Shown here in pieces: positions 33,018-64,000 of a stretch of DNA of 64,000 bases (positions are counted from its first letter, which is position 1; each line of letters opens with the position of its first letter). The DNA is taken from assembly GCA_021521415.1 (NCBI GenBank), contig JAIQDT010000672.1, positions 310,001 through 374,000 of the forward strand, read 5' to 3'. The stretch comes from Bidens hawaiensis (lineage: Eukaryota > Streptophyta > Magnoliopsida > Asterales > Asteraceae). The notes beneath the pieces are model-generated. The model was given only the letters and a program-made list of their open reading frames with translations. It ran no database searches and was not told the origin of the DNA. The position numbers were made by a program, and so were the translations under genes.

Positions 33018-33087
33018 TATACGTCTCGTATAGTGCTATAAGAGGGGGGCGTATAAGGCTCCCACATAGTCCTATACGAGACGTATA
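33018..33087. repeat. Perfect 16-bp inverted repeat with GC-rich loop
   Basis: TATACGTCTCGTATAG at 33018-33033 is the exact reverse complement of CTATACGAGACGTATA at 33072-33087. The 38-base loop includes GAGGGGGGCG. It recurs at 62588-62657 in copy 2. Further TATACG/CGTATA motifs surround it. Confidence 0.8.
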
Positions 33088-36067: not shown

Positions 36068-36764
36068 CTTTGCACACCTTTTGTCTACTTCTTGGGCTGG
36101 ATCATAGGTGTTTCTTCTTTAGATGTTATTGGACCACTAGTTTAGATAAAAAGGTACTGTTATTGGAACTCTACTACAAACAAATATTGTAATATAATGA
36201 TAATCTGTATATATGAATTGGTATTGCAAAATATGTAAGATGGTATGGGACAGATTAGCGAGAAGTTAGCGAAACAAACACGCCACGAATAACAAGCAGT
36301 GGACGTAAGATGCTTTAGGCAACACAATCTTTGTGTTTCATGTGTTCACTATTCTTTCATTTCAAAGTTTTGAACATACTCCTCTAGATCTTTACAATTA
36401 TTTTTTGTATCTGATCTAGTGATCTTATATAATAAGGATTTGTTGGTCAGATATCATTGTTATGCCTCGATAACGGTTATTAAAAAATGAAGTAAAATAA
36501 ACAGATTTAGAAAAGCAAGTGGTTAATGCAAAATTATAATAGTAATCAAAGCTTTGCAAGACTTTCTAATAGAATTAAATAATTAATACAACTCATTTAA
36601 ATATGTTTAATTAGTTGTATGACTATTACAGCCTCACTTCATAGGAATCATCTTAGTTTCTTGGAAGGTGGCAAGCTATACATTGACCAATGAAACTCAA
36701 ATTATTATAAATATCACATGATAATATCAACCAAGTCAACCATCAAACATCTTTGATTGCAGCC

Positions 36765-39431
36765 ATGAATCCTTCACTCTTGTTCCATATCTTTTTCATC
36801 TTCTTCACTGTCTTCACTTCAAAAGCCTTATCTTCATCTGCTTCAGTCTCCAACTATGATCACTGCAACTCTTATGCTCCTGAAGCCACTCCTACTAGTA
36901 AAATGTTCACCAGATTCCCGTTTCTCGAACCTGTAACGAGCCATTACACAGGCGGTCAAAACATTCTTGATCAAGATCCCCAATCGCAACGGTCCATACT
37001 CTTTAAAGCCACCCGTAACATATTCAGGACAAACGTTGTTGACACGTTCAAAATCCAGGCCCGGTTAAGTTTCTTTTCATCATATATGTATGATCCTGAC
37101 CCCCCTTCCAACTTCACTAATATCAAGTCCAATTATTCACGGGAGCATCCGCATACTTTGGTGTTTGATTTAGATGGGTTCTGGTCAGTGTCTACAAGTA
37201 AGCTTTGTATGGTTGGATCGGCTCATTGGTCAACAAAAGAAGGTAAACAACTTAAACTAAATGCTGTTCTTAAGCTTAAATTCACTCGGTTCATAAACTT
37301 AAATAACAGTTTAGTAAGTGGAATGCTGGAGAGTTTAGCTTCTCCTAATGATATTGACTACTTTGACCCGATTTCAATGCTGGGATTCCCTCGAGTGGCT
37401 ACGTTCAAATACAAATATACATTGGTATCTAATGAAGAGTGTGATGTAACTAAAACCATGCAAGATTCGGTAATTAGTATGAAATCTCTAGATGCGTGTT
37501 CGATTTTCATGCAAAGATTCACAACTTACAAGTTGGAGTATCCAAGTAATTGCAAGAATTGTTCTTTATTTGGTCAAGATCATATTGGTGGTGACTTGCC
37601 TGCTTTCATGTCATTGTACGGGATTCAGTGTTCTAGGGAAGATAATAAAATTCGTGTTCTGGTCGAATTTCAAGACAGAAGATTTACTCCATATGATAGA
37701 TCTTTCCAACCTGACATATCATTAATTGGAGAAGGAACATGGAATGGGATAAAAGATGAGATGTGCATTGTTGCGTGTCGTATCTTGAACCAAAGTGATC
37801 CTCTGGGCAGTGCCCGTGTTGGAGATTGCTCGGTTAGGTTGAGTTTGTGGTTCCCAGCGGTTCGGTCAATCACAAAAACGCATAACACTGAGGGTCAGAT
37901 TTGGAGCACCAATTTGAAAGATGATTTGGGGTCGTTTAAAATGGTTAAGTTTAAAAGCTTTGATCATAGCCGGGAGAATTACGGGATGAAGTATGAATAT
38001 ACACAAATGGAGAGAGTAAGACGGATTTGCCCGAAAAAGAAAAACGCAGGAAACAAGTATCAAAGGGACGGGTATCAATCAGGGTATCATAGCTTTGACA
38101 TGTATGTGAAACATAAGAACATGGTTTCGACTGGTTTTGCAGTCGCTATGTTTGTGGGAAGCCGGGGATTTAACGATTACACAATTGAGGCGGTATCCCC
38201 AGCAGCAGATATTTCAACCCCCACCTACAGCGGTCCAGTGAACATCAGCTTTGAGATCAGTTTTATGTTGAACATTAGTTCCGTTTCAAGAAGCGGGATT
38301 TCCTCACTAAATCTATCCTCTACTGATGATCATAGAGTGGAAATATCTGCAGAAGGGGTTCACGATGATGAAACGGGACAAGTTTGTATGGTTGGGTGTA
38401 GAAACTTGATAAAAAACTCTTCTTTTGATTGTGACATACTGGTGAAATTCCAATTCCCGCGAGGCAAGGAAAGTTTAATAAAGGGAAACATCGAGAGTCT
38501 ACGTGCAAAAACTGATGCTTTGTACTTCGAGAGTCTCGATATCGTTTCATTCACGCTTACGGAGACTGAAGCAAGAGAATCAATATGGAGAATGGATTTA
38601 GAAATCATCATGGTCTTGATTTCAGACACACTTATGTGTGTGTTTATAGGAAGACAGCTACTTCATTTGAAGAAGAGGCCTGAAATGGTTGATTCCATTT
38701 CGGTTTTGATGATGTGGATTCTTACTCTCGGGCATATGGTTCCTCTAGTTCTAAACTATGAGGCAACATTCTCTAGCACTAGGAATCAGCAAAATGTACT
38801 AATTAGGAATAATGGATTGCTTGAAGTGAATGAGGTGATTGTGAGGATAGTGACTATGGTGGCTTTCATTTTGCAATCCCGTCTTCTTCAGTTAACATGG
38901 ATTGCAAAAAAGAATCATTGGATTCATGAGGCACGCATGCTTTTAATCTGTTTACCTGTGTATATTATTAGCGGGTTGGTAATGTTGCTAGCAAACTGGA
39001 ACAACAATAGTTACACTATTTCAAGTCAAAGTCAACATTCTAGCTTGGGATTATTGAGGTCTTATGCTGGATTAACACTTGATTGGTTCCTATTCCCACA
39101 ACTAATACTCAATATATTCCAGATTTCAAAAGGAAATGCTTTGAGTCATACGTTTTATATAGGGACTACATTCGTGCGATCACTGCCTCATGCGTATGAT
39201 CTTTGCAGGGGTCAGAATTATATAAGTCATCAGTTTGACAGGTTATATCTTTATGCAAATCCGAGAGCAGATTTCTACTCACCTTCTTGGGATATTGTCA
39301 TTGTTTGTGGAGGCTTGGTGTTAGCAGTGATTGTTTTCTTGCAGCAATGTTTTGGTGGTCGGTTTATGTTTCCAAAGAGATTCCAGGAGCATGTCGAGTA
39401 TGAAATGGTACCTGTAACAAGCAATGAGTAA
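36765..39431 (+). CDS. DUF2921 membrane protein, intronless
   Basis: This is a plant-specific protein of 888 residues in one exon. I use the ATG at 36765 (MNPSLLFHIFF...) because the frame further upstream has no ATG. A hydrophobic signal peptide covers about residues 1-24. A long luminal or extracellular part follows, with duplicated DUF2921 modules. Each module has a FxLxGxW-like core, CMVGS/CIVAC/CMVGC motifs and several N-glycosylation sequons (NFT, NIS, NLS). At the C-terminus are about six or seven membrane helices, for example IIMVLISDTLMCVFIG, LMMWILTLGHMVPLVLN and IVIVCGGLVLAVIVF. Arabidopsis FLYING SAUCER1 has this layout plus a RING domain (from memory); no RING is visible here, as the protein ends EYEMVPVTSNE. 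Molecular function is not established. Confidence 0.88.
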   Translation: MNPSLLFHIFFIFFTVFTSKALSSSASVSNYDHCNSYAPEATPTSKMFTRFPFLEPVTSHYTGGQNILDQDPQSQRSILFKATRNIFRTNVVDTFKIQARLSFFSSYMYDPDPPSNFTNIKSNYSREHPHTLVFDLDGFWSVSTSKLCMVGSAHWSTKEGKQLKLNAVLKLKFTRFINLNNSLVSGMLESLASPNDIDYFDPISMLGFPRVATFKYKYTLVSNEECDVTKTMQDSVISMKSLDACSIFMQRFTTYKLEYPSNCKNCSLFGQDHIGGDLPAFMSLYGIQCSREDNKIRVLVEFQDRRFTPYDRSFQPDISLIGEGTWNGIKDEMCIVACRILNQSDPLGSARVGDCSVRLSLWFPAVRSITKTHNTEGQIWSTNLKDDLGSFKMVKFKSFDHSRENYGMKYEYTQMERVRRICPKKKNAGNKYQRDGYQSGYHSFDMYVKHKNMVSTGFAVAMFVGSRGFNDYTIEAVSPAADISTPTYSGPVNISFEISFMLNISSVSRSGISSLNLSSTDDHRVEISAEGVHDDETGQVCMVGCRNLIKNSSFDCDILVKFQFPRGKESLIKGNIESLRAKTDALYFESLDIVSFTLTETEARESIWRMDLEIIMVLISDTLMCVFIGRQLLHLKKRPEMVDSISVLMMWILTLGHMVPLVLNYEATFSSTRNQQNVLIRNNGLLEVNEVIVRIVTMVAFILQSRLLQLTWIAKKNHWIHEARMLLICLPVYIISGLVMLLANWNNNSYTISSQSQHSSLGLLRSYAGLTLDWFLFPQLILNIFQISKGNALSHTFYIGTTFVRSLPHAYDLCRGQNYISHQFDRLYLYANPRADFYSPSWDIVIVCGGLVLAVIVFLQQCFGGRFMFPKRFQEHVEYEMVPVTSNE

Positions 39432-42094: not shown

Positions 42095-42781
42095 GGGTTA
42101 GGTTATAATAGAAAGTATAGTTTTTGTAGGAAGGATAGGAAGTAATCTTGTTCACTGATTTTTAACATGGAGGATTGAGATTAGTTTAGGGGGAAATCAA
42201 GTGTGAACATAAGGGGAAGGACATATAAGGAATAACACATTTGTTGTCTTTCTCTCTCCACATGCAAGACACATGCCAAATTCCTCTATCATTTTTAAAC
42301 GTCCATAACTTTTTTTTACTACGTTTTTATTGAAAAACAAATTCACCATAATAACGAGTGTCTTTTTATCTTTAATATGAGTACCATATTGTAATATAAA
42401 AATAAAAAAAAATTAGTGGGTTTTTTAAAATTGTGTTTTACCAAATTGTGTTTTACAAAATTGTGTTATACAATAGTATTTTTCATTGTGTTTTTTACAT
42501 TGTGTCATACAATTGTGTTTTTTATTGTGTTTTTATCATTGTGTTTTTTTCCATTGTGTTTTTCATAGTGTTTTCCGTTGTGTTTTTTCGGACTTTTCCG
42601 GCGAGGTGGTGGCGGTGGGTGACGGATGTGGTGGAGTGGTAGTGGATGTAGAAGATGAGTGAAAATGTAAGTGGGTTTTTGAAATGAATGTAAGTGAGTT
42701 TTGATATAAAAGTGTTAAGACAAAAATACCCTCCTTCCTAGCATTCTTAGAAAATTCAAACTTCTTATTTAAACTTAACCC
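42095..42781. mobile_element. MULE-like element, second copy (inverted)
   Basis: The left end GGGTTAGGTTATAATAG and the right end AAACTTAACCC are the same inverted termini as at 235-1412. The interior is the reverse complement of that copy, with the TTGTGTTTT array and GGTGGCGGTGGGTGACGG. The flanks TTAAAACATG and TTAAAGAACATG look like a target duplication with a 2-base indel. This copy lacks the internal inverted segment of the first. Confidence 0.75.
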
Positions 42782-47760: not shown

Positions 47761-47928
47761 TAAGGGGGCAAAGTGGAGAATACGATAAGGTTATGCTGAA
47801 ATTGAATTATGAATGTTATAGGAGTTTGATCGGTGTTACGGACTCGCATGGCACTGTGTAACCGGAAAGAGCTTCGGCTCGTTCGTGACGTATTCACCGG
47901 GAGGATTTGTTTACTTTACTGTGGACTC

Positions 47929-49034
47929 TGAAGAGGTAGGTCCCAGCAGAGCCCAGTTGGACCCGCAAGACTCACCTTGAACAGGGACGTCTGCGCGGTT
48001 GGACCCGCAAGACTCACCTTAAACAGGGACGTCTGCACAGTTGGACCCGCAAGACTCACCTCGAAGAGAGACGTCTGCGCAGTTGAACTCGCAAGACACC
48101 TTAAAGAGGGACGTCTGCGCAAAGACCAACTGGATCCGCAGGACCAACCATGCTCAGAGACGCGACGTCCTTACGCGCAGTACGCAAGCTGTTCCCGCAG
48201 GAAAAGCCTCCCAATAGTGACGTACTCCGCCTGTTCCCGCAGCCACGGATACTAGCCATCAGGGAAGGCTACCCGCACAGCAAGGCTACACGCACAAGAC
48301 ACTAACTCTCAAATAATTCAGTAATGTCACCTGAAGAGGGAATGAGCAAGCCGGGAATACTCCCGCCCAAAGCCGGGAATTCTCCCGCCCAAATGAGCCA
48401 GTCCGTACGCTATTGGAGGACCCTTTGTACTATACCTGCCAAGGTATGGACAAAATATCTTACCAAAGCTGCGACAGCTCACTGACAACAGTGCGACGAG
48501 CAGCACGCTCTAGTACTTAATGTCACTATCAGCCGCTGCCTACTCACCAACCCTTGTCGTGGCACGTGCATAGCCTGCAGTTGGTGGAAAAGGAATAGTA
48601 CACAGCCGGCCATGTCACTATCAGCCGCTGCCTACCCACCAACCACCAGCACGGCACGTGCGTAGCCCACAGTTGGTAGAAAAGGAATACTATTCAACCG
48701 GCTGTACCTGCTTGGAAACCAACATTCGGCTATAAATACTCTAACACCTTGGAACGGTATGATTATCTTATATCTTCATATATTATCTGATATCTTCTCT
48801 CTAGCTATTTCTCTTAATATACACTTATATTCAAGAGCAATCTAGTCTGATTCTCACACCTGAGGGTGGTCACAAGGAGGTACCCCCCCCCCCTTCTCAG
48901 TGACGAGCTCACGGTGTCTGTTTTGCAGGTCATTAGAAGAACAACCATCTTTGCCGGAACTAACCCTCGTGGGAAACATCTATATAACCCCCAGATTATC
49001 CGTAATCTGCCCGGGGTCAATTAGTGTTTCTTCA
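47929..49034 (+). repeat. 5' LTR
   Basis: It begins TGAAGAGGTAGG and ends GTGTTTCTTCA. It contains four tandem 42-bp units (47956-48122) with TTGGACCCGCAAGACTCACC and GGGACGTCTGCGC. It also has a direct repeat around CACTATCAGCCGCTGCCTAC and a run of eleven C near 48885, six in the 3' LTR. Confidence 0.95.
48731..48739 (+). promoter_or_regulatory. LTR promoter TATA box
   Basis: GGCTATAAATACT at about 48728-48740 matches a plant TATA box and is conserved in the 3' LTR (57024-57032). Transcription should start about 30 bases downstream and define the R region (inference). Confidence 0.65.
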
Positions 49035-49035
49035 T

Positions 49036-49050
49036 TGGCGCCATCCGTGC
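49036..49050 (+). other. Retrotransposon primer-binding site
   Basis: TGGCGCCATCCGTGC begins two bases after the 5' LTR end. The TGGCGCC start is seen in Tat-lineage and related gypsy elements. I do not name the tRNA with confidence. Confidence 0.7.
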
Positions 49051-49100
49051 ATAAAAGCTAGAACTTATTCTTTTTCAGTTTTTTCAAAACTTCTGGAAAG

Positions 49101-50633
49101 ATGGTTAACGTTACTCCGGTCCCAAAGCCCGCGAGTGACCAAGAAACCCCGGTAATCACAACCCCAGCTACTGGGAGGAACACCGGTGAGTACACAAATT
49201 TTACAAACACTACCCCGGTTACTCAAGCCGGGGCAAGTGCAGTAAATTTTACGAACACTACCCCGGTTACCAGAGCCGGGGCAAGTGCAGTAAACAATCC
49301 TTCACTGGGATTCACCGATACCCAGTTGGAGAGACAACAGGCGAGGCTCCCCCGCCAAACACTCGATCTAGTTAAAGCGTGGGCCGAAGCACGTCAGAAG
49401 GAATTCCAAGCTTAGTTGGATGAACGCTTGCGTTCACTCCGACAGGCTGACGAATTCGGAAGCACTCAACAGCTCAACATGAGCAGTGAGTGCAAGTACT
49501 CGGACGACGATCGGGAGGAATCCGACACCGACGCAAACCCTCGCCATAGGGCAAAAGGGAAGCGTAAGGAAACGGACTTCCAACCGAGAAGGAATTTCGG
49601 AGAAACCTTCAAACCAAGGAGCGCGGGGGGAAACCAACGTGACTTCTCCAAAACCTTGAGACCAACTGCTGCAAATGCGGGAACGTCCAAGTTTGCAAGG
49701 GACATTGCGGAAGCAATCGCCCCGAGAAGTGCCAAACAAATGTCCAACATCGGCACTTATGATGGTATATCTGACCCAGACGATCATTTGAACAGATTCA
49801 TAGCGGGGGCAACCGTCAGCAATTGGACGGAACCCACGTGGTGTTACATGTTCCAAATGACGCTGGTTGGGGCAGCCAGAGCGTGGTTCGACCGTCTACC
49901 GGTCCACCACATCTACGATTGGGCAGACTTCCAGCAGAAGTTCAGCCAACACTTCAGTCAGCAAAGAAAGTACACCGAAGAGCAATGGACGATCCTCAAC
50001 TGCATCCGAGAGGAAGATGAATCTTTGCTAGACTTCATCACTCGCTTCAACTCAAAGAAGCTGAGTCTGGGCACTATTAGCGAAGATCTTGTTCGCGCTG
50101 CTTTCATCCAGGGCACGAAAGATCCAGAGCTCATCCGCACCTTAACGGGTAAAGACGGCATGCCATCCACATGGGATGCCATCATGACAGCAGCTAAACG
50201 CTTCGCGGAAACGGATAAGCAACTGGGAAGAGATCTTCCCCAGAGCACAAACCTCTACACCCAGAAAACAAGAGAAAACAACGTCCTTACCGCCCGACTG
50301 AACAAAAAGAGGAAGCTAGGTATTTGGCAGTCAAGGATAAACTTTGACACCTCATCCGGCTCGCACCCTCGGTTAGGCGGAAAGGATAATATGCAGTCGT
50401 CGAATCGGAACTCCAGATGGACGCCACTCACCAAAAGCGTCACCGAGATATTCGCCACAGAGAGGCTCCCATGGCCAGAGTCTCCAATTATCCGACAGCG
50501 TCCAAACGCTGATCAAAGCAAATTCTGTGACTTCCACAAGACAAGAGGCCACACCACCGAGGAATGCTTAGACTTGAAGGACGTCGTCGAAGCATTTGTC
50601 AGAGATGGGACGCTCACGCACCTCGTGGCGTAA
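49101..50633 (+). pseudogene. gag: Retrotransposon gag with one internal stop
   Basis: The frame runs from MVNVTPVPKPASDQ to a TAA after TLTHLVA, about 510 codons, and is broken only by TAG at 49413-49415 (after KEFQA; it continues LDERLRS in the same frame). The N-terminus has a 48-bp in-frame duplication (NFTNTTPVT-AGASAV twice). A Retrotrans_gag domain follows: MSNIGTYDGISDPDDHLNRF, WCYMFQMTLVGAARAWFDRL, YDWADFQQKFSQHF and ESLLDFITRFN. A C-terminal zinc-binding motif CDFHKTRGHTTEEC has CxxH-xxxGHxTxxC spacing, typical of Tat-type gag. It ends without a protease. Confidence 0.9.
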
Positions 50634-50937
50634 TGAACGCTGAGCAGGCTAATGCGGGTAGAACCCCAGTTGGGGAAAACACGAATAAAACTGCAGCTTC
50701 AATATTGGAGACTACATACTGCGTAAACAACGAGATTCCGAACCAGGTGCATGTCGGCTCGAAAGGCTCGATGACACCCCCATCCCAAGAACAGGGTAGG
50801 GAGCTTAATTACACAGGTTGCATGTAGATCAATTCCAAACTTGTAAAGAAAAGGCCCAGAGCCACTTCTAATGGAAATGATTCTCCTTATCACATTGACG
50901 CTGATGGTCTTACATTTATACTTATGAACTTTCCACA

Positions 50938-51672
50938 CTGATATGCCGGTATTCACCGCATATATAAGTGTAAAAAGAAGGTCGTTGCGTGTGGACGGCG
51001 GCAAAACCCGCATAAACACAAAAACGGCAAAAATCTAAGATGAGAAACACCTTCACGCAGGTCAGTTATGGGTAAAGTTTGGTCATCCCACTAAATGAAA
51101 GTGACTGTCCTACCCGCACAATCATGATAGAGGAAACTGAACGTTAACCTATTGACAACCGCGCGTCGAACGGTTAACTTATTCAAAACACTGATATGGG
51201 TTTTCAACGCATAAATAAGTGGGGAAGTAAGTCGTTGCGTGTGGACGGCGGCAAAACCCGCATAAGCACAAAAAACGATAAAAATTTCTAACAGATAAGG
51301 ACAACCTTCACCCAGGTCAGTTATAGGTGAAGTTCGGTCGTCCCACTAAATGAAAGTGCCGGTCCTACCCGCACAATCATGATAGAGGAAACTGAACATT
51401 AACCTATTGACAACCGCGCGTCGAAAGGTTTAACTTATTCAAAACACTGATGCCGGTTTTCACCGCATAAATGTGAAAAGAAGTCGTTGCGTGTGGACGG
51501 CGGCAAAACCCGCATAAACACAAAACGCAAACCTTCACGCTGGTCAGTTATAGGTGAAGATTGGTCATCCCACTAAATGAAAGTGACGGTCCTACCCGCA
51601 CAATCATGATAGAGGAAACTGAACACTAACCTATTGACTACCGCGCGTCGAACGGTTAATTTATTCAAAACA
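50938..51672. repeat. Three tandem repeats of about 253 bp between gag and the antisense gene
   Basis: Units start at 50938, 51191 and 51446 with CTGATATG(C/G)GG or CTGATGCCGG, and each contains GTCGTTGCGTGTGGACGGCG, CACGC(A/T)GGTCAGTTAT, CCCACTAAATGAAAGTG and GACAACCGCGCGTCGAA. A partial fourth piece follows at about 51790 (CAGTGAAAGTGGCAGTCC). They occupy the place where pol would be expected. Confidence 0.9.
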
Positions 51673-51935
51673 CTTGGAAAATTGCTAAGTTAAACTAAAG
51701 TATGCACGAGCGAATCATATATTGTTTATGCGGCAAAACAAGTGCCAAATTAACCTATAATATGCATGAGCAATTCATATAACGTTTATAAAGCAAGTCA
51801 TCCAGTGAAAGTGGCAGTCCTACCCGCACAAACATTTATATTTCGTAAAAAATTCAAACATTACAAGAATGGCCGGGTATCTACCCGCCTACAGAAATAT
51901 AAATCTATCCTAACGGTGGGAAGGGATCTCAAGGT

Positions 51936-54900
51936 TCAAACTTCAGGACCACTCCCTCCAAACCCACTTGTACCCGCACCATCAGTTGGCTGTGGCGGTT
52001 CAAGGAAAGTCTTGAGAATGGTTAGCCCATCATCAGCAGCAGCAATTTCGTTCACCTTCTCCACCACCGGATGTGGGAAGGCAGCATACTGGTTCACTGC
52101 TTGGTCATAGGCAGCTTCAGTGTCTACGTCATAAAGAGGGAAGTTGGAAGGCGGGATGCCCTTCTCAACAAACCCCAGACTAAGCAAGAAACCAGCCTTT
52201 TCCCCATCCTCATGGGAAGCGTTGAGGGCTGCGCTCATGGCATCGTCATAAGATGTGTTCGTGAAGATCCGATGCACAACCTACAACAAGAAAAAATACA
52301 AAGTATCAAAACCTTAAGTACAAAGAAAAGCGTAAAGATATTATGAAGCTACGCATACCTGCGACAACGCTTCTCGTAGAAGCCATTCCTTGGTGATCAG
52401 AGCCTCCTGGAGGGCAGCTTGAGCTTGGTTACGGGCGCGTTCGGCTTCATTTTTGTTAAGGTTGGCAAGCAACACTTCCTTAGCAGCAGCCTCTTCAACG
52501 CCCTTTAGCTTACGCTCAGTGTGGTCAAGCATACCCCTCTGATCCAAGATCTCTTGGAGCTTCTTGGCGTCTTCCATAGCCAAAGCATCATGAGCCTGCA
52601 GAAGCCTCTCTAGTTTGGCTTTAAGCTCCTCATTTTCGGTGCGCAGAGGTTCAGCAACGGCTTCAGCCTTGGTGGCCTTCTCGGTCGCGTACCGCGCAGT
52701 TTCCTTAGCCAACCGAAGCTGTTCGTTAACAGCTTGGGTAGCCTTGGAACGGGCCTCGAGCTGGGCCTGCACTTCAACCTCGAGGGCCTTGAAGGCCTTT
52801 TCCTTCTCCGCAGCAATTGCGGAAAGTCTCCTGTTCTCCACCCGGATAGCCCGCGCCTGAGCCACTTCTTGGATACGCGCAGCCTTTAACTTGTCGTTTT
52901 CACGACAAAGCAACTCGACGCGCGGCTGCATCCGGGCAAGGAGAATCCGAAGCTCATTTGTCAGCCTACCCTCCTGGTAGCTAGACATGGCTTCCCCCAA
53001 CGCGCCACTTGGGGCCGCGTGACGCGCCCACTCGAAGCAGTCCACAGCCGTCCGAAGGGTTGTTCCCCGGCGGATGTTCCACCATGGAACATACACATCA
53101 TTCGAATCCGACACTGCAAAAACAAAAAGCAGTTAGGAAAAGATGATAAAAATATAAAAAGGCCAAAATAACCCTACGCACCTGTAGGGTCGACAACAGG
53201 CCGGTAGCCGCCAAACCCATCACCCGAACCTAACGGATAACCATCCAAGAGGTCAGGCAGATGGGAAGGAGGCAGAGATTGGCTAGAAGCCCCGAACATA
53301 CCTGCTAAACCGGCCGGGGACGAGGTAGTTGCCGGTGCCGGAGGCACGGTTGAAGCCGCCGCGGTAGAGACCATCGGAGGTGAACTCACAACCGTGGCCG
53401 CCGCTTCGGAGGAGCCCGCGGAAACAATCACCGCCGGCTCAGTGAAGGATTCCGTGAAGATCGCACTGACAGCCGGCGGGGATGATGTTACAGTTGGAAC
53501 AGTTGCCTCAACAGAATGAGCAACTGAACCAATACTGCAAACAGGCGTAGCCGCCTGGGTCATCGCCTCGGGTAGGTTGACCAAACCTACCGTCATGGGT
53601 CCAGAACTGCTCCTCCCCGCATCACTTTGGAATGCAGTAGCATCCACGCCTGCATGAAGACAAGATATTAAAAACAATGGCGGAAAGAATTGCGGGTAAG
53701 ATTAATTTACACTTACGAGTTTTCTTGAGCTTGAAGGTTCTGACAGGCGGGGACGAACCCGAGGGAGCCGGCCTTTTCACGCCAGTCACCGTTGTCGTAC
53801 TGGGCGGATCGGAGGTGACAGCTGTCTCAACATCCGAGACAGTTGTCTCACCACCACCAGGGTTCCCCGCCGCCTCCTCACTTTCGGTCTCCGACTCAGA
53901 CCGGTTCCCCTGATCGGCAGTGGAGGCAACCTTCGCCTTGCCCTTCACGCCGGCAGCTTTCTTCTTCCTCACGAAGAAAGGACCATCTGTGGATTCCTCA
54001 TCAGATGACAAAATTAGAGGAATTCCAGCAGAGGTTTGAGCATTGAGAGGGCGAGGGTTAAAGAGTCCCTTACCTGGCCGCCTGGCGCTCAGAATCTCGT
54101 GGCCCGGCGGGTAGACCTCCACAAACCGATCCGCCGTTTGCTCCAAGATGGGCAACTCGTTCTCGTCGAGAGCACGTGTACCCAGCCGAGCGGGACCACC
54201 GCTCTCACGCGGTTGCAGAAGCGACTGCAAATTGTTCCCCTCTGAAAATAAACAGCAGTTAGAAGAAAAACCCTAAATCAGCAAAAAGATATGAAGCATA
54301 CTGTAAGGGATAGAGTTCAAACCGTATTCGAGGACGATGGGAATCTGTGGCGCCTCTGCCCCAGCATCCTTCCATACCCGGCTCATCCCAATCATCACCA
54401 TCCCAGACTCCGCAAAGCGGTAAACCGGAGTCTGGATCTGGGAGATCTTGGCGAACCATTCCGCCTCTTGGTAATTGGAGGCGTGAAGGCTAGGGAGCGC
54501 CCTCCCGTTCTTAAACGTCATCGCAATGGGGACGACGCGAGCGGAGACATAGAAAAACTCACGCTTCCAAGAACGAAGACTCGCTCGGTAGCGCAGATCT
54601 TCAAACCCTTGATCCGATTGACTAAGGTATACCAGCCCTGGATGCACCTCCAAGAGTAGAAGGTCATCAGGCGGTCGACGCGGGGCTCAACGCCCAGAAT
54701 ATGGCACACCCATTCAAAATGGCGAACCTTTGCGATCGCCATCGGGTGCACCTCCGTTAGGTGTACACCGTGTTTCTCCAAAACACGGTATACAAACTTC
54801 GTCAATGGGAACCTCAGATTCCCATAGACGAAAAATGCAGCATACACCCCTATCTTGCCCTTGGAGGCATCATACACCGTCTGGTGAGACTCAGGAAACT

Positions 54901-55078
54901 CAGGCTCGAAAGGCTCGAGCATGAACTTCTTGACGATGTACTGATATAGGTCGACGGAAAGAGCACACTGGCACTCGCCAGCAGTACTCTTATCATCCTT
55001 ATCAGACGCGGACATCGGATTCTCGGTGTATACTTCGGACTCCTCGGCAATAGCCTCAGGATCACGAATGGAAGACAT
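51936..55078 (-). CDS. Antisense five-exon gene inside the retrotransposon (PF04195-like)
   Basis: Exons, high to low: 54323-55078, 53717-54241, 53182-53649, 52359-53113 and 51936-52280. All four introns (46-90 bp) have GT-AG borders and phases that join, giving roughly 949 codons. Exon 1 starts MSSIRDPEAIAEE and carries the 'putative gypsy type transposon' domain (PF04195-like): VYAAFFVYGNLRFPLTKFV, HGVHLTEVHPMAIAKVRHFE, GWYTLVNR, SWKREFFYV. Exon 2 is Ser/Glu- and Lys-rich (VRKKKAAGVKGKAKV, possible nuclear signal). Exon 3 is Ala/Ser/Thr/Pro-rich. Exon 4 (VYVPWWNIRRGTTL) is a long Ala/Glu/Lys coiled coil. Exon 5 ends GTSGFGGSGPEV. A one-base shift is needed in exon 1 near 54560-54610, so this copy may be mutated. 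The role is unknown; similar antisense ORFs occur in Tat-lineage elements. Confidence 0.78.
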
Positions 55079-55194
55079 GTTTTGGAAGATGGAAAGAACG
55101 ATTTCAGGAGAATGCTCGACAAAAGTTAGAGTATTCGCCGGAAATCGCTTAGAAGAAGAAGTGAAACTGTGAGTTGAGATGCATCCTCTCCTCC

Positions 55195-55204
55195 CTTTAT
55201 ATAC
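55195..55204 (-). promoter_or_regulatory. TATA box for the antisense gene
   Basis: Minus-strand TATATAAAGG lies about 117-126 bases upstream of the antisense start codon at 55078, which leaves room for a leader of about 90 bases. This suggests the antisense gene has its own promoter, independent of the LTR. Confidence 0.6.
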
Positions 55205-55555
55205 TCATCGCAATGAATGCGATGAATTTAATGCGGGAGAGACGGAAAAGCGCAGGTGCAATGAAACTATGACACGTGGAATATGCAAGCTGGCAACAAC
55301 TGTCGACAGGACGCGCGCCGTAAACTTCGCGGCCACGCGCCCGAAAACTCGCGCCCACGCGCCTGAAAAAGCGTCTGGAATGACCATATACTGTCACGTC
55401 GCTATAACTTTATGCACGTCCTGAAACTGTCAGAAGAAACCGTCAGACCACGCTGACGTCCCTTCAACAGTTGGACTGTTCTTATCCTTTCACCAACTCT
55501 TCGAATTTCAAAAAGATTCAAAAAGATTCAAAAGTAAGCGGGACTTTACCCCCTT

Positions 55556-55840
55556 ACCTCGGCAACCAAGTAACTATAAGACAGGTGCGGGTACAGTGTC
55601 AAGGCAAAACCCTTCACATACTTAGCACCTGCAGGGAATTGAAGCCAAGAATACCTCGGCAACCAAGTAACTATAAGACGGGTGCGGGTACAGTGTCAAG
55701 GCAAAACCCTTCACATACTTAGCACCTGCAGGGAATTGACGCCAGGAATACCTTGGAAGTAACTATAAGACGAGTGCGGGTACAGTGTCAAGGCAAAACC
55801 CTTCACATACTTAGCACTCCGCAGGGAATTGAAACCAAGA
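55556..55840. repeat. Three tandem repeats of 97 bp upstream of the antisense promoter
   Basis: Units start near 55556, 55653 and 55750 (ACCTCGGCAACCAAGTAACT; the third is shortened). Each contains GTGCGGGTACAGTGTCAAGG, AAACCCTTCACATACTTAGC and GCAGGGAATTGA. They lie about 360-640 bases upstream of the antisense TATA box. Confidence 0.9.
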
Positions 55841-56221
55841 AGGATCTTCTGGGCCATGCTTGCGGAAACGGAAATAACATCCCCGCATAGCGGGAACGTT
55901 GAGAACTAGATTGTTTGAAGCTCCAAGATGGAATTGGTTGTTTAACATAATTGATCACTATGTTTAAAACTACCAAAACCTCATGGAGAATCTACACGTG
56001 GAACTCAAGGCTCCTGACTTGCGAGGAGGTTACAGACCTACCCGCATCATACCCAAAGATCAAGCAGAAAAGTCGGGAATTTCTGCACGTGACATTAGGA
56101 CTTCCGCGGGAAGAATCCCCATGGAAAACCTTAAAACTAAACCCTTTTCAAAACCCCTTGCTTAAGTCCAAAAGTTCACCTCATTAACAATTCATGAGAA
56201 GAACATTGGACTTGGGGGACT

Positions 56222-57322
56222 TGAAGAGGTAGGTCCCAGCAGAGCCCAGTTGGACCCGCAAGACTCACCTTGAACAGGGACGTCTGCGCGGTTGGACCCG
56301 CAAGACTCACCTTAAACAGGGACGTCTGCGCAGTTGGACCCTCAAGACTTACCTCGAAGAGAGACATCTGCGCAGTTGAACTCGCAAGACACCTTAAAGA
56401 GGGACGTCTGCGTAAAGACCAACTGGATCCGCAGGACCAACCATGCTCAGAGACGCGACGTCCTTACGCGCAGTACGCAAGCTGTTCCCGCAGGAAAAGC
56501 CTCCCAATGGTGACGTACTCCGCCTGTTCCCGCAGCTACGGATACTAGCCATCAGGGAAGGCTACCCGCACAGCAAGGCTACACGCACAAGGCACTAACT
56601 CTCAAATAATTCAGTAATGTCACCTGAAGAGGGAATGAGCAAGCCGGGAATACTCCCGCCCAAAGCCGGGAATTCTCCCGCCCAAATGAGCCAGTCCGTA
56701 CGCTACTGGAGGACCTTTTGTACTATACCTGCCAAGGTATGGACAAAAGATCTGACCAAAGCTGTGACAGCTCACTGACAACAGTACGACGAGCAGCACG
56801 CTCTAGTACTTAATGTCACTACCAGCCGCTGCCTACTCACCAACCCTTGTCGTGGCACGTGCATAGCCTGCAATTGGTGGAAAAGGAATAGTACACAGCC
56901 GGCCATGTCACTATCAGCCGCTGCCTACCCACCAACCACCAGCACGGCACGTGCGTAGCCCACAGTTGGTAGAAAAGGAATACTATTCAGCCGGCTGTAC
57001 CTGCTTGGAAACCTACCTTCGGCTATAAATACTCCAACACCTTGGAACGGTATGATTATCTTATATCTTCATATATTATCTGATATCTTCTCTCTAGCTA
57101 TTTCTCTTAATATACACTTATATTCAAGAGCAATCTAGTCTGATTCTCACGCCGGAGGGTGGTCACAAGGAGGTACCCCCCTTCTCAGTGACGAGCTCAC
57201 GGTGTCTGTTTTGCAGGTTATTAGAAGAACAACCATCTTTGCCGGAACTAACCCTTGTGGGAAACATCTATTTAACCCCCAGATTATCCGTAATCTGTCC
57301 GGGGTTAATTAGTGTTTCTTCA
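56222..57322 (+). repeat. 3' LTR
   Basis: It begins TGAAGAGGTAGG right after a weak purine-rich tract (TTGGACTTGGGGGACT, to 56221) and ends TTTCTTCA. At 1101 bp against 1106 bp for the 5' LTR, the length difference comes mainly from the poly-C tract. The 42-bp units are at 56249-56415. Confidence 0.95.
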
Positions 57323-57981
57323 GACTCGTACTCTATTCTTTTGTTCAAAACAGAGGTTTAGTTGATCTCCGACGAGTCTACGCCGCCGTGCCGTCGTTGA
57401 ATTTGTGGGTTTTCCGATTACTTAATATGATGATACACGTCAAATTGACTGATTGATTACCAAAACACTTTTATGGGAATTGTGGTTGTAATTAATTGTC
57501 ATAGAGTTGTGTGATTGATGTTGAACTAAAGTTTGCGCGCAGATGTTAGAAATTGATATTGAAAATGGTGAATTGGGTGATGTCGGTGGGTGGATGATTG
57601 TCGGTGTAGTTGGTGGCCGTTCGTATTTTCCGTCGAGTTGTTTATGGCCGGGTGGTGATTGGTGAAGCCTACGACTTGATTTCTGAATTATTTATTTATT
57701 TGGATTTTTGTTGTGAAACACTAAAATGGTAAAAAAACTAAAATTATTTGCTAAATACTTAAATAGTCCCCAATTAATTTACGAGCTCTTTCAAATTTGG
57801 AGATGTATTTTTATGTTTACCGGGGAAAATTACCTTAATTGTTAACCGGACTGAACTTTTTAATAAAAATACACCGAGTAAAGAAGCATTCGGCTCTGAA
57901 AGTGTCAAGTATCAATTTATAGGTTACAACGATACCTAAGCGTATTTTATATTTGTACGAGTCACGGAGTCAGTGTATTTA

Positions 57982-58560: not shown

Positions 58561-59746
58561 TCGGGTTAACCTGAATAAACTTTTAGTTTTGAAATTAAAT
58601 ATACTTTAAGGTATAATAGGCTTAGTCTTATTTACTAAAGTTATCAAAATCTGAGCCTAATTGACTGTTGTCATTCCAACTATTATGGATCGACTGTTTA
58701 TTGTTAATTTATGTTTTCCGTTTATTACTAATATTAATAGCAACCGTAATCGAACAACCAAATCACACCTGGTTGAAGACGATTACGGTTCAAGTTAGTT
58801 ACTTAGTTTTATATTTCTTTTGAATTGTTTTATAACTTTATCAAGTTATATTGGTTTATTATTTGATTATTTGCGTTACAAGCAAAGAAAATTATGTTGT
58901 TTTAATTTTAGCATCAAGTAGCTTTTCAAATTTACAGAAAAATCACTGTATTTCTCTCTCCTCTACTCACAATACCCTAAACTACTCTCTATATTATAAA
59001 AACACCACTCACTTAATATGGTGGACATGATGTAATGCTCTAAGACCTCAAGTGTCAACATCAGTATGAACGGTTATCCCGTCTCAGAAAAGTTATGCTA
59101 AAAAAACCTGAATTCAAACGTAAGTTTAATTTTATGTCAGGTTTACAATTTCAGTAAAATACATAAATAAATCTATATCATAAAGAAAATTGTGTAAGGT
59201 GATATCGTAAGACCGGGTCTCATATAATTAGCCTCTAGTGTGATAATAAGGATGGTTTATATGTAAAAAGTCATCAGGCAACGTAGAAGAGAGAGTGTGT
59301 GTCAAGTTGAATGTGTTACCTTCGGCGAACTAGTGGGGTATTTATAGTGGTCATGGTCTTTAAGCCTTGCCCAAAGCAGACATGTTTTCTTGCTACATTA
59401 ACACTGGTCTCTACAACTACTCTGCATTGGTGTAACTTATTAACGTTGGTGGTTTGAAACAGGAGATGGGGTACTAATCACCCATGCTTCTCCTTTCTGC
59501 AAGTGCTAGACTTAGTCTTTATTATAGCGTTTGTCCTATTTCACATAGGCTCTTCTCGTTTTCTCAGGTTATACCAATCTATCAAACGACAATGATTTCT
59601 GAGGCGTTGTATGGGTTATCCTTGGCTCCTGTGATGCCCTTTTTACATGATGACTTCGTTAACACCTTTCATTTCCCTTTAGGCGCAATATGCTTGTTGT
59701 GGGGGAAGGTATGAGGTCTACCCTCATGTATTCATGATCCATAGTC

Positions 59747-60178
59747 ACTTGAATAACACCAATTCACCAAACAATTTTAAAAAGTAGGGAGGAGAGAGGG
59801 AGTCAATCAATCAGACAGTGATGACAAGGACAATGTCATTTCCCTCTCCCGCTAAAATGGTCTAATATATATATATATATATATCTAACACTCAAGTGAT
59901 ACCAATTCACCGAACAATTTAAAAAACGAGAGAAGGGGCCGATCAATCAAGATAGTGGTGATGTAGACAAGCCCGTTCCTCCTCTCGCTAAAAATGGTCT
60001 TATATATGTATGTAGCACTCTGAGTGACCATTCATCGAATATTTTAAAAGGTAGGGAGGAGAGAGTGAGTCGGTCAATCAAATAGCGCTAGCATGGACAT
60101 GCTCATTCCCCCTCCCGCTAAAGATGGTCTTATATATATGTATCTAACACTTAAGTTACACCAATTCACTAAACATTT
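59747..60178. repeat. Tandem repeat of about 130 bp (copy 2)
   Basis: This is the counterpart of 30180-30608, with a longer TA run (about 59866-59883) and one extra base near 60021. Confidence 0.8.
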
Positions 60179-60603
60179 TTTAAATTAACACCGGTAAAAT
60201 AATCTCAAATCCACTGCTACATAACGATGTGGCAACCAAAAATGAGGATATCAAGACAAGAAGTTTTATACGAGTGAAAAATGGTTTAAGGTTAGGAGCT
60301 TTGTCTTGAACACAATGGTGTAATTTCAACTATAAAAATTTGTTTAGGTGATGAACTAAGTTCATATGTTCCAGGAATTTGCTACAAGCTTATCATTAAT
60401 CATTATATATCTCATTGAAACCAACCAAAAAGGTAACACAAACATTTATAAAAAGGCATTTATTTATATTTACTCTATTAACCAAACCCATACAGATAAA
60501 GTTATCATCACAACATTAATGTGAATCCTACAAGAGAACCTCATCATGTGAATGCATGTATTTCCTTCACAAACCCATGGAATCCAATCCAAGCTATACA
60601 AAC

Positions 60604-61299
60604 TCAAAACAATAAAAGACACAACATGAAACAACAAAACAGAAAAATCGTCAACCGGTTTAGCGACTTCTCAACTTGCATCACTTGTCTTCTCACCCTT
60701 GGGTTATCACCCGAAACCTGATACGAGTTATGGTACGACCCATAAGGATAAGCGCCCAAAAAACCCGAATCAGAGCTCCTGAATATCATACCACACACCA
60801 TCTCACCAACCATCCCCACAATCGCATTTGAAAATCCGGTTGGGCTCACGGGCCCAACTATGTTACCCGGTCCAAACGCATAGCTTCCAAACGGGTTCGG
60901 TTGAGGCTGAGCCTGAAAAGGGACCGGATGGACCTGCTGGTTCATATGCAAAACCGAACCAACAGGCGCTGATGGTCTGTTGGGTATGACTAGTTCTGAT
61001 TGATGTGCCCGTTTCAATTTGGGTTCGGGCCCGTTTGATGGTGGGGAATTGCCACGCCCGTATAGAGGAATTAATGATGAGTCAGAAATGTGTGCTTTAC
61101 AAACAGGGCAATTGGGCTTGTTGTCTGTTGGGATATGGAGCCATTTGTATATGCAGGCCCAACAGTACAGGTGGCCACATAGGGTCACCACCGGGTCTCG
61201 TGCTGAATCCAAACAAATGTTGCACTCGCAAAAGCCCGTTGACGTTTCAGAAACTGATTTCGAGGAGGGATCAAACAATGGTGTTCGTTGGAAATCCAT
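60604..61299 (-). CDS. RMA-type RING membrane-anchor E3 ubiquitin ligase, copy 2
   Basis: This is a second complete copy of the gene at 31034-31729, 231 residues with the same C3HC4 RING and C-terminal anchor. I see one amino-acid change: Gly to Val in the linker (RPSAPGGSV to RPSAPVGSV), caused by C at 31392 against A at 60962 on the plus strand. The start codon, the likely 5' UTR intron acceptor and the upstream region are retained, so it should be expressible if the duplication is real. Confidence 0.9.
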
Positions 61300-61369
61300 T
61301 AACACTGCACAACAAGAAGAAAATTTTAAAATATAAATACACACATATATTATATATAGTTATAGTTAT

Positions 61370-63977
61370 ATGTATGTGACAAAAGAACATACACAATTAA
61401 CAAGGTGCCTTAAATAGATCAATCATAGCCTGCAACATATAAAAAGATTACGTGGGATACTTAAGGATCATGAGCCGGTGACTCTTCCTATTATTAACTT
61501 AATTAATTTATTAGTGACTTCAGACCCCTATGATTAACTTAATTAATTTACTTATTTTATTAGTGATTGGAGAGTGTTTGGATGCATGTTTTGAAACTGA
61601 TTATTGAGTTGACTGATCATGATCAGCTACAATAAGTCTAGCCCATACGGGAATTTCATGCAAAAATGAGTCGGCCACACCTAATCATGGTGTTGCTTTG
61701 TTTGGAAAGACTCCAGAGGTGCCCGACAGCCCAGCCTAGGCGGACAAGGCTAGAGAGGTGCCATGAAGGATTGTCGAGTACCTATGGTATGGAGTCTTGG
61801 CAGCCAACAGCCAAGTTAAGGCACCGGTGTAGCCCTTTTATTCATGTTTAGGCCAGTTGAGAAACAAGTGTTGCCAACTAATTCTTGCATGACATGACAT
61901 TCTAGCTGGGCTACACCGGTGCCTAGTGGTGTCCAAGGGGGTTGGTCAACATGCCTGTTTTTGTTTTTTTTTCCTTCTATATAGAAACATAGATAAAATT
62001 TGTACACAAAGTCAAAGAAACCTTAAAGTTTCCACTTTCAGTAGCGTTTGCCAAAATTGATTGATTCTGATGTTTTGGAACAGATAACAGGATGTGGAAA
62101 AGTAATCTAATAATACCTAAAAGTTGGCATCCAAACAGTCCCTAATTACAAGAACCCTAAACACTGAAATCAAAACTGACCCAAACTTTCAAATAGCGAT
62201 CTGAACAAGCAAGCATTAACGAAGCATAATTTGTATATGAAATATACAAATTCTCAGGATGAAAAAGGACGAACCTTGAATTGTTTTGTTTTAAGATGAA
62301 TCTTGTATGAAGCCTACATAAGATATAATGTTGGTTGCAAATGGGATTCAGTCAGGAGGGAATTTAATTTGTATAGTGATCAGATGCATTTAAAGAGGAG
62401 GGTGGGTACATGTGTTGTTCATTGACAGCTATTTGGAAGCACCAGTTTCTCCGGCAATCATCCAATTAGGTTTCTTTTGTTTTTAGTTAGTTGTTGTGTT
62501 GTGTTGGGTGTAATGTTCGTTAAAGCTTTCACAAAACTAACTTTACTTTTTCATTTGGGTCCCCTGTATGTCAGGCTATACGGAGTCTATACGTCTCGTA
62601 TAGTGCTATAAGAGGGGGGCGTATAAGGCTCCCACATAGTCCTATACGAGACGTATATGGAGATGTTTGGTGTCTCTAGAAAACCCCTTTTCATTTTCCT
62701 AATTAAATTTGAAGTAACTCCATTGATTGATCTGACATTGAATGGAAAATAAAGATTCATGATAGCTGTAAGGTCTCAAATTCAAATCCGATTCTAACTA
62801 GAAGTGAGTTTTTTGACAAAAGATTTTTCCTGAAATAGAAGATGGTGGTGGACTTAGGCTACACAGCTTATGGGGAGATTTTCAAAAAGGTGTATGGCAT
62901 TAGTATTTGTCTATTCATATAAAACTAGGGAAATTTTCAAATCAAAATCACAAATATTTATTTGTGTTCATTACTTTAAACGTGATACATTACATGGTTG
63001 TGTTTCTACTTATGTTTTTCTCTCTCATGGCCTCTAATTGCTTGCATGCACTACGTATTGTGATTCTTGCAATTTTCAACATAAATCTGGTTATAGAAAG
63101 ATTGTGTACTTATAAACTGATCGGTATTATTTTAAACACATATTGCATCATAGTCAATAAAAATATTCTAAAATTTGTGGTTGACGTGCCAATTTTCTTC
63201 CACTGGCTTTTGAGTCACACGACATTTGACGTACACCAATAGAATTTCTTGCCCTGCTAGACACACAATTTGAAAATCCTATGCTCATTGATGTAAAAGT
63301 ATGAGGAATAGTATATTTTGATTGAACAGATTTGCCTAAAAAGTAACCAAAAAAAATAAAAAATCAAAAGCCATATATTCATCAGACAGTTTTTTTTTGG
63401 TTAAGCTAATATAAATTTGTTGTGATACAATTTTTTTATTATAGTAATTTATAAATCTTAATGTATTGTATTATTAAAACACAGTTAACTTGATTCAAAT
63501 AAGAAACAAAACATGGTCGACTTAAATCATTAATATAATAAATTTAGAGAAAAATCTTTTGTGAGATTGATGGACCTAATAAATGTTTGTCAAATTAATA
63601 ATTGATTCTTATAATATTTTTGACAATTTGGCCCGTATCACCAAATGGCAAATACTCGTATTTACACACATGCATAGATTACATATCCACGTTGTGATGT
63701 CTATCTCACCTGCTAATCATTGGTCCTGATGCTATTAAGTTTAGACAAGATTAACTAAGATTAATCAAATACATATAAAATTAACAAGATTAACCGACAG
63801 TTTGGCGTACCGACAGTAAAACATTGGCCAATCTTGGCTATATACCTGGAACATTTAAAAATTTGGATAGTAAGATACAATACAGATATTATTAGAGCCT
63901 GAAGCATCTGTACCAGTGGTGATATCAAAATATAATAAAACTAAATACGTGTATTTATATATATACACATAATACCT
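61370..63977. other. Intergenic region of copy 2
   Basis: This is the same as 31800-34407, including the inverted repeats at 61820-61923 and 62588-62657. No additional gene was found. Confidence 0.5.
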
Positions 63978-64000
63978 CTAAAAGAACTTCTCAATGCAGG
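63978..64000 (-). CDS. Thioredoxin m, copy 2, last codons only
   Basis: The last 23 bases of the window match the end of the thioredoxin m coding sequence (TAG stop, EKFF). The duplication therefore extends into, and perhaps through, a second thioredoxin m gene outside the window. Confidence 0.7.

Follow-up and report, generated by a model that had tools for sequence, protein, structure and literature searches.

A five-exon antisense gene in a pol-less, apparently Retand-like LTR retrotransposon family of Bidens hawaiensis

The element described here lies in a 64,000-nucleotide stretch of the Bidens hawaiensis genome (contig JAIQDT010000672.1), hereafter the window. It is probably a decayed member of a non-autonomous, high-copy family, Retand-like and TR-GAG-like—LTRs and gag, no pol—that keeps its lineage's five-exon antisense accessory gene and would receive pol in trans. 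The exon–intron structure of that gene, frame-specific selection, pol-less amplification, and the retention of intron 1 are directly evident in the copies compared. Antisense TRP28 genes and gag-only TR-GAG elements are already known as such; a literature search of limited reach found no description of conserved introns in antisense TRP28 genes, or of an antisense TRP28 gene kept under selection after the loss of pol.

Structure of the element and its antisense gene

The features of the element, in window coordinates, are as follows.

47929..57322, plus strand: whole LTR element, 9394 bp, delimited by LTR comparison and a 5-bp target site duplication
47929..49034, plus strand: 5' LTR, TG...CA, 97.0% identical to the 3' LTR (K2P 0.025)
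49035..49052, plus strand: putative primer-binding site, starting TTGGCGCC and adjoining the end of the 5' LTR
49101..50633, plus strand: gag reading frame (PF03732), with an in-frame stop at 49413-49415 in the window copy
50634..51935, no strand: spacer with ~250-bp direct repeats at 51049-51674; pol domain absent
51936..52280, minus strand: exon 5, containing the stop codon
52281..52358, minus strand: intron 4, phase 0, 78 nt in the window
52359..53113, minus strand: exon 4, a long Ala/Glu/Leu/Lys/Arg-rich probable coiled coil
53114..53181, minus strand: intron 3, phase 1, 68 nt
53182..53649, minus strand: exon 3, a linker rich in Ser/Thr/Pro/Ala
53650..53716, minus strand: intron 2, phase 1, 67 nt
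53717..54241, minus strand: exon 2, with basic stretches RKKKAAGVKGKAK and, at its end, KLKKTR (last codon split by intron 2)
54242..54301, minus strand: intron 1, phase 1, 60 nt in the window; most pol-less copies (20 of 23) have 65 nt
54302..55078, minus strand: exon 1, with PF04195 (TRP28) at codons 82-143 and, in the window copy, a one-base frameshift near 54580-54592
55196..55203, minus strand: TATATAAA, 125 nt upstream of the antisense ATG, a candidate internal antisense promoter
55555..55841, no strand: tandem array of a 97-bp unit, three copies long, separating the antisense gene from the 3' LTR
56205..56221, plus strand: putative polypurine tract ending TTGGGGGACT and adjoining the 3' LTR, assigned by position and composition only
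56222..57322, plus strand: 3' LTR, assigned by LTR comparison

The LTRs (1106 and 1101 bp), their TG...CA ends, and an intact target site duplication (GACTC, at 47924-47928 and 57323-57327) identify an LTR retrotransposon; the stretch adjoining the 5' LTR is presumably the primer-binding site. About 5.6 kb, including the 97-bp tandem array and the ~250-bp repeats, separate the end of gag from the 3' LTR. In a search for pol, none of the 19 remaining open segments (55 amino acids or longer) in the internal region matched a Pfam profile above cut-off, the best sub-threshold match being zf-POGZ (E 0.0013).

The first-pass annotation of this DNA had proposed five open minus-strand segments joined by four introns of agreeing phase, and the introns stand. 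An unguided search chose the same four from seven candidates, yielding an open spliced frame of 2475 nt, as compared with a mean of 405 and a maximum of 735 nt in dinucleotide shuffles of the region (n = 160). All four introns are GT-AG, with a GC content of 0.30-0.34 versus 0.52-0.59 in the exons, and their phases (1, 1, 1, 0; worked out by hand) are mutually compatible. Intron 4 is GT-AG, and 75-81 nt long, in all eight sequences compared. It is the first of the five segments that fails, being broken in this copy. The predicted PF04195 domain (TRP28, Transposase_28) was recovered by profile search on residues 82-143 of the exon-1 ORF, at 30.5 bits against a curated cut-off of 26.2. A TATA box had also been proposed upstream; TATATAAA does lie there, but it is weak as lone promoter evidence because TATAWAW occurs four times on the minus strand in 7.2 kb.

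The predicted product, of some 950 residues, would consist of a TRP28 N-domain, a basic linker, a Pro/Ser-rich spacer, a long probable coiled coil, and a conserved C-terminus. The basic stretches of exon 2 (RKKKAAGVKGKAK and KLKKTR) look like nuclear localisation signals, and exon 4 has a periodicity of 3.5 residues, which 44 of 1000 shuffles equalled. An AlphaFold model built from a two-row alignment was uninformative (mean pLDDT 31.8), and a PDB sequence search with alignment A1 gave no match at E <= 0.1.

Other copies, selection, and intron retention

The window copy itself is not intact. From the ATG, the frame of exon 1 stops at 54518, and a different frame reaches intron 1. Among 30 genome copies, exon 1 is 778 nt long in 26, 777 nt in the window and two others, and 779 nt in one; because 778 nt is the prevailing length, and because the Bidens relative P0001 is open through the place where the window exon breaks, we conclude that the window copy lost one base near 54580-54592. 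That loss, together with the in-frame gag stop, marks the copy as dead. The antisense gene, called complete-looking at first pass, does look complete in some other copies but is incomplete in this one; a gag segment of 524 amino acids is open in another genome copy.

Genome copies were picked by their likeness to exon 1. A gag–spacer junction without pol is common to 22 of the 28 other copies examined in the same genome; the lack of pol is therefore a family trait and not a single deletion, and the first-pass reading of a gag-only element with a spliced antisense gene is supported. Six copies lack the full junction, and none of them showed pol joined to the family spacer: two are gag-deleted members, one has unidentified sequence upstream of the spacer, and three leave the family within the antisense gene and run on into unrelated DNA, which in one of the three includes RT and RNase H. 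In copy L034, an RNase H-type pol piece is fused to mid-gag of the pol-less family.

Frame-specific constraint extends across the antisense gene. For exons 1-3 in 23 pol-less copies, dN/dS is 0.32 in the spliced frame (codon bootstrap 0.25-0.41) versus 0.99 and 1.27 in the shifted frames; for part of exon 4 with exon 5 (eight sequences; L036, which contains no family sequence, was left out), it is 0.17 versus 1.06 and 1.87. Gag, in 20 sequences, gives 0.19 versus 1.23 and 2.55. The spliced frame has the lowest value in every exon taken singly, the weakest contrast being that of the first part of exon 4 (0.53 vs. 0.71 and 1.89). Taken alone, the 0.44 obtained over all 29 copies does not stand out, because a non-coding control (0.995, 0.724, and 0.443 in its three frames) reaches as low; what does stand out is the contrast with the shifted exon frames. 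Copy L008, in which a deletion runs from within intron 1 into intron 3, was left out of this 29-copy comparison, and also out of the 5'-side test, lying too near a contig end.

Shared and private variants differ in their distribution between codon positions 1+2 and position 3 (Fisher p = 0.003). Where copies depart from the commonest length, the difference is divisible by three in 16 of 25 instances for exons 2-3, versus 4 of 19 for introns 1-3. The comparison of exon and intron rates proposed at first pass had a divided outcome: the exons show clear frame-specific constraint, but introns 1-2, with many private variants, have almost no shared ones (1 of 126 sites), fewer than the exons. The selection signal could partly be inherited, through recombination with a putative autonomous relative.

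The exon 1–intron 1 junction has 1,229 genome-wide matches at up to three mismatches (reversed controls: 0), and the spliced exon 1–exon 2 junction has none at the same tolerance; there is no sign of intron 1 loss across copies. For this intron, then, the first-pass argument that introns antisense to the genomic RNA survive retrotransposition is upheld. Two observations on intron 1 were set aside. A length difference between Bidens and the family was dropped, 65 nt being usual in the family and 60 nt found only in the window among 23; a gapped intron comparison (30/31 positions) was over-fitted, the ungapped figure being 17-19/32 among the 20 copies whose intron is 65 nt long.

P0001, also from Bidens hawaiensis, was the only relative found, and by the exon-1 ORF search alone. 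Its annotated model reads through intron 1, and the annotated tail, in a shifted frame, agrees with 36 of 40 positions of exon 2, against a null maximum of 0.64; its TRP28 domain scores 22.1 bits (E 1.8e-4), below the curated cut-off of 26.2. A full-length protein search (957 aa, with X over the break) returned nothing at E <= 0.001, and no relatives came from viral contigs scanned with exon 1 and gag, genome contigs scanned with alignment A1, a plasmid search with exon 4 DNA, or a phage search with the gag protein.

Proposed mechanism and alternative explanations

A minus-strand promoter of its own, near 55200, would drive transcription of the antisense gene, and the host would splice the transcript. 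In the LTR-driven genomic RNA, being the opposite strand, the splice signals would be present only as their complement, and new copies would therefore inherit the introns. A related autonomous element would supply pol in trans, but gag and the TRP28 protein would have to be self-supplied or act preferentially on their own element, which would explain why both are under purifying selection after pol was shed. The product is most likely a nuclear DNA- or chromatin-binding regulator of element expression or integration; it may be a nuclear accessory factor favouring its own element, and could, as suggested at first pass, act in trans on replication or silencing. A bolder version, which we put forward only tentatively, treats the pol-less family as a natural deletion experiment in which pol proved dispensable and gag and TRP28 did not. 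TRP28 would then be a cis-preferring factor that the element requires in order to spread, acting, for instance, by marking the element's chromatin or lifting its repression, and opposite-strand introns could be carried indefinitely, perhaps protecting the mRNA from small-RNA silencing. Introns can offer an mRNA protection of this kind.

It is also conceivable, though we think it unlikely, that the gene is under selection solely in an autonomous relative with pol, and that recombination repeatedly feeds it to pol-less copies for which it is useless. L034 indicates that recombination or rearrangement with pol-bearing elements does happen, and TRP28 loci are numerous in the genome: a first look gave 19,592 candidates, of which 150 were scored. 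However, a single gag–spacer junction in most copies points to pol-less parents that replicate, shared variants with a third-position excess segregate among the pol-less copies and place the gene itself under constraint, and the six copies lacking the full junction supplied no pol joined to the family spacer. A different objection, that it is the antisense RNA that matters, with dsRNA or siRNA tuning the element and the reading frame a relic, has been raised as a possibility for antisense ORFs in a review (PMC7264820), and the near absence of shared variants in introns 1-2 would suit it. Frame-specific constraint in exons 1-3 and in part of exon 4 with exon 5 is unexpected for a pure RNA function, however, as are the length differences in multiples of three and the TRP28 domain that P0001 keeps, albeit below the curated cut-off; we judge this account improbable.

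More doubtful still is the view that the introns are retained, and that the protein is TRP28 exon 1 plus a short tail, the remainder being separate ORFs as in published surveys. Kept in place, window intron 1 has an internal stop, but in the spliced frame the constraint on exons 2-5 is close to that on exon 1, and composition, splice sites, and length variation all suit introns; the read-through model of P0001, and the separate listing of antisense ORFs in a survey whose text lacks the word "intron" (PMC11963269), speak for the simpler protein. Capture of a host gene in antisense orientation (transduction) would account for introns, which host genes normally have. But TRP28 is reported to lack similarity outside transposable elements and to be found in most Retand clusters (PMC11963269), and the genome contains at least 150 PF04195 matches above cut-off, so a recent capture is not indicated; we give this explanation very little credence.

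Relation to known elements and other TRP28 loci

Antisense TRP28 ORFs occur in 97% of surveyed Retand clusters (Vicient 2025, PMC11963269), where their role is given as unknown; that survey used ORF Finder on elements selected by RT. Retand elements (Ty3/gypsy, Tat group) resemble the window element in having a PF04195 gene in antisense orientation after the sense genes and before the 3' LTR, tandem repeats in the same part, a long internal region, and further antisense coiled-coil (Smc-like) ORFs (PMC11963269). The window element differs in lacking pol, and in that its TRP28 and coiled-coil parts are exons of one four-intron gene. Having no RT for an RT phylogeny, it appears Retand- or Tat-like by its antisense TRP28 gene. 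A long 3' region with tandem arrays, which the window element also has, is common in the Retand lineage, not universal.

The LTRs around gag and the absence of a pol domain recall TR-GAG elements, which are mobilised without a pol of their own; as described in PMC9784723, however, these have one ORF between the LTRs, and the window family adds a spliced antisense gene that is also under selection. Maize Grande gene23 (Gomez-Orte 2013, via PMC7264820) is alike by description only, in what the review relates of it: an accessory gene that lies antisense in the 3' internal region, has a promoter of its own, and encodes a nuclear product. Ogre and EVADE are plant LTR elements that likewise bear functional spliceosomal introns, but those lie on the sense strand and serve subgenomic RNA (PMC12786077), whereas the window introns are antisense, and genomic RNA should keep them. 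The family offers a clear natural case of retroelement introns that persist because they face away from the genomic RNA.

HBZ of HTLV-1 is spliced and is a bZIP protein. It is also antisense and nuclear (PMC11963269), and its likeness to the predicted product—a basic region followed by a coiled coil—is one of layout, with no homology claimed.

One spliced, selected gene here would correct annotation, since TRP28 and Smc-like ORFs listed separately may be one protein, and exact junction coordinates are now available for an RNA search. A pol-less family that keeps its TRP28 gene also narrows the function to something that the element needs for itself.

Similar introns may exist beyond this family. 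Among 30 other TRP28 loci from the PF04195 search, a candidate intron of some kind was seen in 12. Once L068 (A-rich), L075, L077, and L088 (early, no gain) are excluded, eight remain, each with a T-rich, phase-1 GTATGC stretch that resembles an intron and has roughly the same position. In three of the eight, the stretch is 74 nt long, and the shared downstream protein is therefore in frame only once it is removed, although these could alternatively be one-base losses; in the other five, it is 75 nt and open, and read-through would therefore work. Between-locus conservation in this other TRP28 lineage is 0.81 in the intron-like stretch versus 0.82 in the sequence that follows.

The element and its antisense gene

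The window holds a Retand/Tat-like LTR retrotransposon whose two LTRs (1106 and 1101 bp) are 97.0% identical (K2P 0.025). Plant substitution rates run at 1.0-1.3e-8 per site and year, and the insertion is therefore dated to about 1-1.25 million years.

47929-57322, LTR element, TSD GACTC on both sides
49101-50633, plus strand, gag (PF03732, 38.8 bits)
51936-55078, minus strand, antisense gene with TRP28 domain (PF04195): exons 1-5 of 777, 525, 468, 755 and 345 nt, introns 1-4 of 60, 67, 68 and 78 nt (window copy)

Outside gag and the antisense gene, 19 further stop-to-stop segments reach 55 aa or more; none has a Pfam match over the cut-off, and so no pol is detectable in the window element. 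Repeats of ~250 bp lie between the two genes (51049-51674), in an array that varies from copy to copy.

The four introns fall where the first-pass annotation placed them: a search by dynamic programming, which knew only generic donor and acceptor rules and sought the longest spliced frame free of stops, opened 2475 nt by choosing exactly these four out of 7 candidates. The longest spliced frame in 160 dinucleotide shuffles did not exceed 735 nt. When the rest of the window was scored in 60 overlapping tiles, just one did better than the antisense gene (2718 nt); it covers a single-ORF gene at 36753-39431. GC content is 0.30-0.34 in the introns (42-54% T) against 0.52-0.59 in the exons. The exon-1 ORF scores above the curated cut-off of PF04195, as had been anticipated. 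The exon-4 product is a probable coiled coil, being rich in Ala, Glu, Leu, Lys and Arg, with a 3.5-residue periodicity equalled by 44 of 1000 shuffles.

The first-pass annotation also described the antisense gene as complete-looking, which in the window copy it is not. The ATG frame of exon 1 ends at 54518, and a different frame reaches intron 1. Because P0001, a protein of the same species (Bidens hawaiensis, Asteraceae), is open across this break, and because exon 1 measures 778 nt in 26 of 30 genomic copies (777 in three, the window included, and 779 in one), comparison indicates that the window copy lost one base near 54580-54592, a loss that the earlier annotation missed. As gag also has an in-frame stop (49413-49415), both genes are dead in the window copy.

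The protein database yielded no relative other than P0001, which is 79% identical across 90% of the query. Its annotated tail continues into a T-rich stretch, after which, with the frame shifted by two, 36 of 40 positions match the exon-2 protein (maximum 0.64 in 500 shuffles). On this sequence fit, the public gene model reads through intron 1, and the exon-2 frame beyond is conserved. Over unambiguous positions, P0001 agrees with exon 1 at 409/448 (260/284 + 149/164) and with exon 2 at 46/64; for intron 1, compared without gaps in those 20 copies where it is 65 nt long, agreement is 17-19/32.

A pol-less family and selection on its reading frames

The same 3.47-Gb genome yielded 6251 first-look candidate copies; 40 were scored, and 30 loci, one of them the window, were retained. 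Copies were picked by their similarity to exon 1, a choice that reduces diversity around that exon. Of the 30, 23 have GT-AG ends at each of introns 1-3, and in five the spliced frame runs without a stop from the ATG to within exon 4. Part of the 5' side was examined in 28 other copies (L008 lies too near a contig end), and 22 of these share one gag-to-spacer junction and lack pol there. This common junction indicates that the pol-less form is a family and not an accident of the window copy; the gag-only state first remarked in one element thus extends to its relatives. Among the six copies without the full junction, two (L037, L047) are family members with gag deletions, one (L038) has no identified sequence upstream of the spacer, and three (L036, L046, L053) break off within the antisense gene, where the sequence changes to something unrelated. 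Past the break, L036 carries a copia-type gag (L036:854-2902) and L053 a sense-oriented RT and RNase H frame (L053:260-1402), both probably nested elements; nothing was recognised beyond the break in L046. The L053 RT was considered as a pol partner and rejected: the break in that copy falls in exon 3 (window position 53390) with the RT on its far side, so the RT was read as part of another element. Separately, L034:3196-3999 (minus strand of the locus) joins an RNase H-type (RVT_3) pol piece to mid-gag of the family, and may have arisen by recombination with a Tat-type relative that carries pol.

Across 23 pol-less copies, the window included, the spliced frame of exons 1-3 has a dN/dS of 0.32 (codon bootstrap 0.25-0.41), against 0.99 and 1.27 in the two wrong frames. 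For gag the values are 0.19 against 1.23 and 2.55 (20 sequences: the window and the 19 of 28 copies with at least 500 bases of gag). In every segment taken singly, the spliced value falls below both wrong-frame values.

dN/dS by segment, spliced frame vs. two wrong frames
Exon 1, first part: 0.37 vs. 0.71/0.81
Exon 1, second part: 0.27 vs. 0.94/1.00
Exon 2: 0.35 vs. 0.88/1.33
Exon 3: 0.31 vs. 1.46/1.53
Exon 4, first part: 0.53 vs. 0.71/1.89
Remainder of exon 4, with exon 5: 0.17 vs. 1.06/1.87 (window and seven copies, five with the full pol-less junction)

In the last set, intron 4 is GT-AG in 8/8 sequences (75-81 nt), and exon 5 is 345 nt in 6/8. Such ratios should not be used simply: over 29 copies (L008 dropped) dN/dS is 0.44, with 0.75 for the opening part of exon 4, and the three frames of a non-coding control stand at 0.995, 0.724 and 0.443. 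Variants common to at least two copies are richer in third positions than private ones (57:74 vs. 170:116, Fisher p = 0.003). Where a length departs from the usual one, the difference is divisible by three in 16/25 cases in exons 2-3 vs. 4/19 in introns 1-3, and in none of the four cases in exon 1.

The difference in rate between exons and introns that the first-pass annotation anticipated was found in part: the exons are constrained in the spliced frame, but introns 1-2 (54242-54301, 53650-53716) are not simply faster. Private variants occupy 29/126 of their sites, proportionally more than in exons, and shared variants just 1/126. Introns 1-2 look as if constrained beyond their splice sites.

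Retention and age of intron 1

The proposal that antisense introns are carried through retrotransposition is borne out for intron 1. A 32-base pattern allowing up to 3 mismatches matched the exon 1-intron 1 junction 1,229 times genome-wide (602 + 627; reversed control 0), and the corresponding pattern for a spliced exon 1-exon 2 junction 0 times, which fits a genomic RNA on whose strand the introns would go unrecognised.

A genome search with PF04195 scored 150 loci, all those listed being above the cut-off, and 30 were kept. Twelve carry some candidate intron under strict rules; nine were examined (L075, L077 and L088, early and without gain, were left out), and eight are alike in having a phase-1, T-rich (53-57% T) GTATGC stretch of 74-75 nt. 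It sits 502-517 nt past the domain start (intron 1 lies at 535 in three family positive controls), and by eye it appears to correspond in place to intron 1, from the preceding protein (LGISKLW vs. LGMSRVW). In three loci the stretch is 74 nt, and nothing but its removal brings the downstream protein that the loci share (VMSALDFLKSDD...) into frame; this gains 177-597 nt, reached by 0/40 shuffles each. In the other five of this separate TRP28 lineage (L072, L078, L080, L083, L087) it is 75 nt, open and uninformative for removal; spliced and read-through proteins are both possible. With a similar stretch in 8/30 loci and none in the ~1.5 kb available at 22/30, intron 1 is probably older than the family, support that extends to these loci and not to TRP28 genes at large.

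Published elements, a proposed mechanism and other repeats

Antisense TRP28-coding ORFs are reported in 97% of Retand clusters (Vicient 2025, PMC11963269), as are tandem repeats, non-autonomous clusters and no known TRP28 role. That survey used ORF Finder on elements selected by RT, and the term "intron" is absent from its text. Other sources call for study of antisense and spliced transcripts (2020 review, PMC7264820), describe plant LTR elements as generally intron-less, with Ogre and EVADE as exceptions (2025 review, PMC12786077), and describe TR-GAG elements (PMC9784723). No spliced antisense gene of such elements was recognised in titles and abstract beginnings, and older papers may mention introns.

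Four points have direct support at the level of sequence: the structure of the gene, selection on its protein, amplification without pol and the retention of intron 1. The antisense gene may be transcribed from its own promoter near 55200 and its transcript spliced by the host, with pol provided in trans. The TRP28 protein would be a nuclear regulator with a preference for its own element, a preference suggested mainly by the retention of gag and TRP28 after pol loss.

Elsewhere in the window, 29350-34430 and 58917-64000 are direct copies of a 5.1-kb segment, 29.6 kb apart and 99.7% identical, either a recent tandem duplication or an assembly artefact. Each copy holds a RING-finger-like ORF (31034-31774 and 60604-61344). 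An inverted pair of ~480 bp, 81% identical (952-1412 and 42095-42574), is probably a dispersed repeat.
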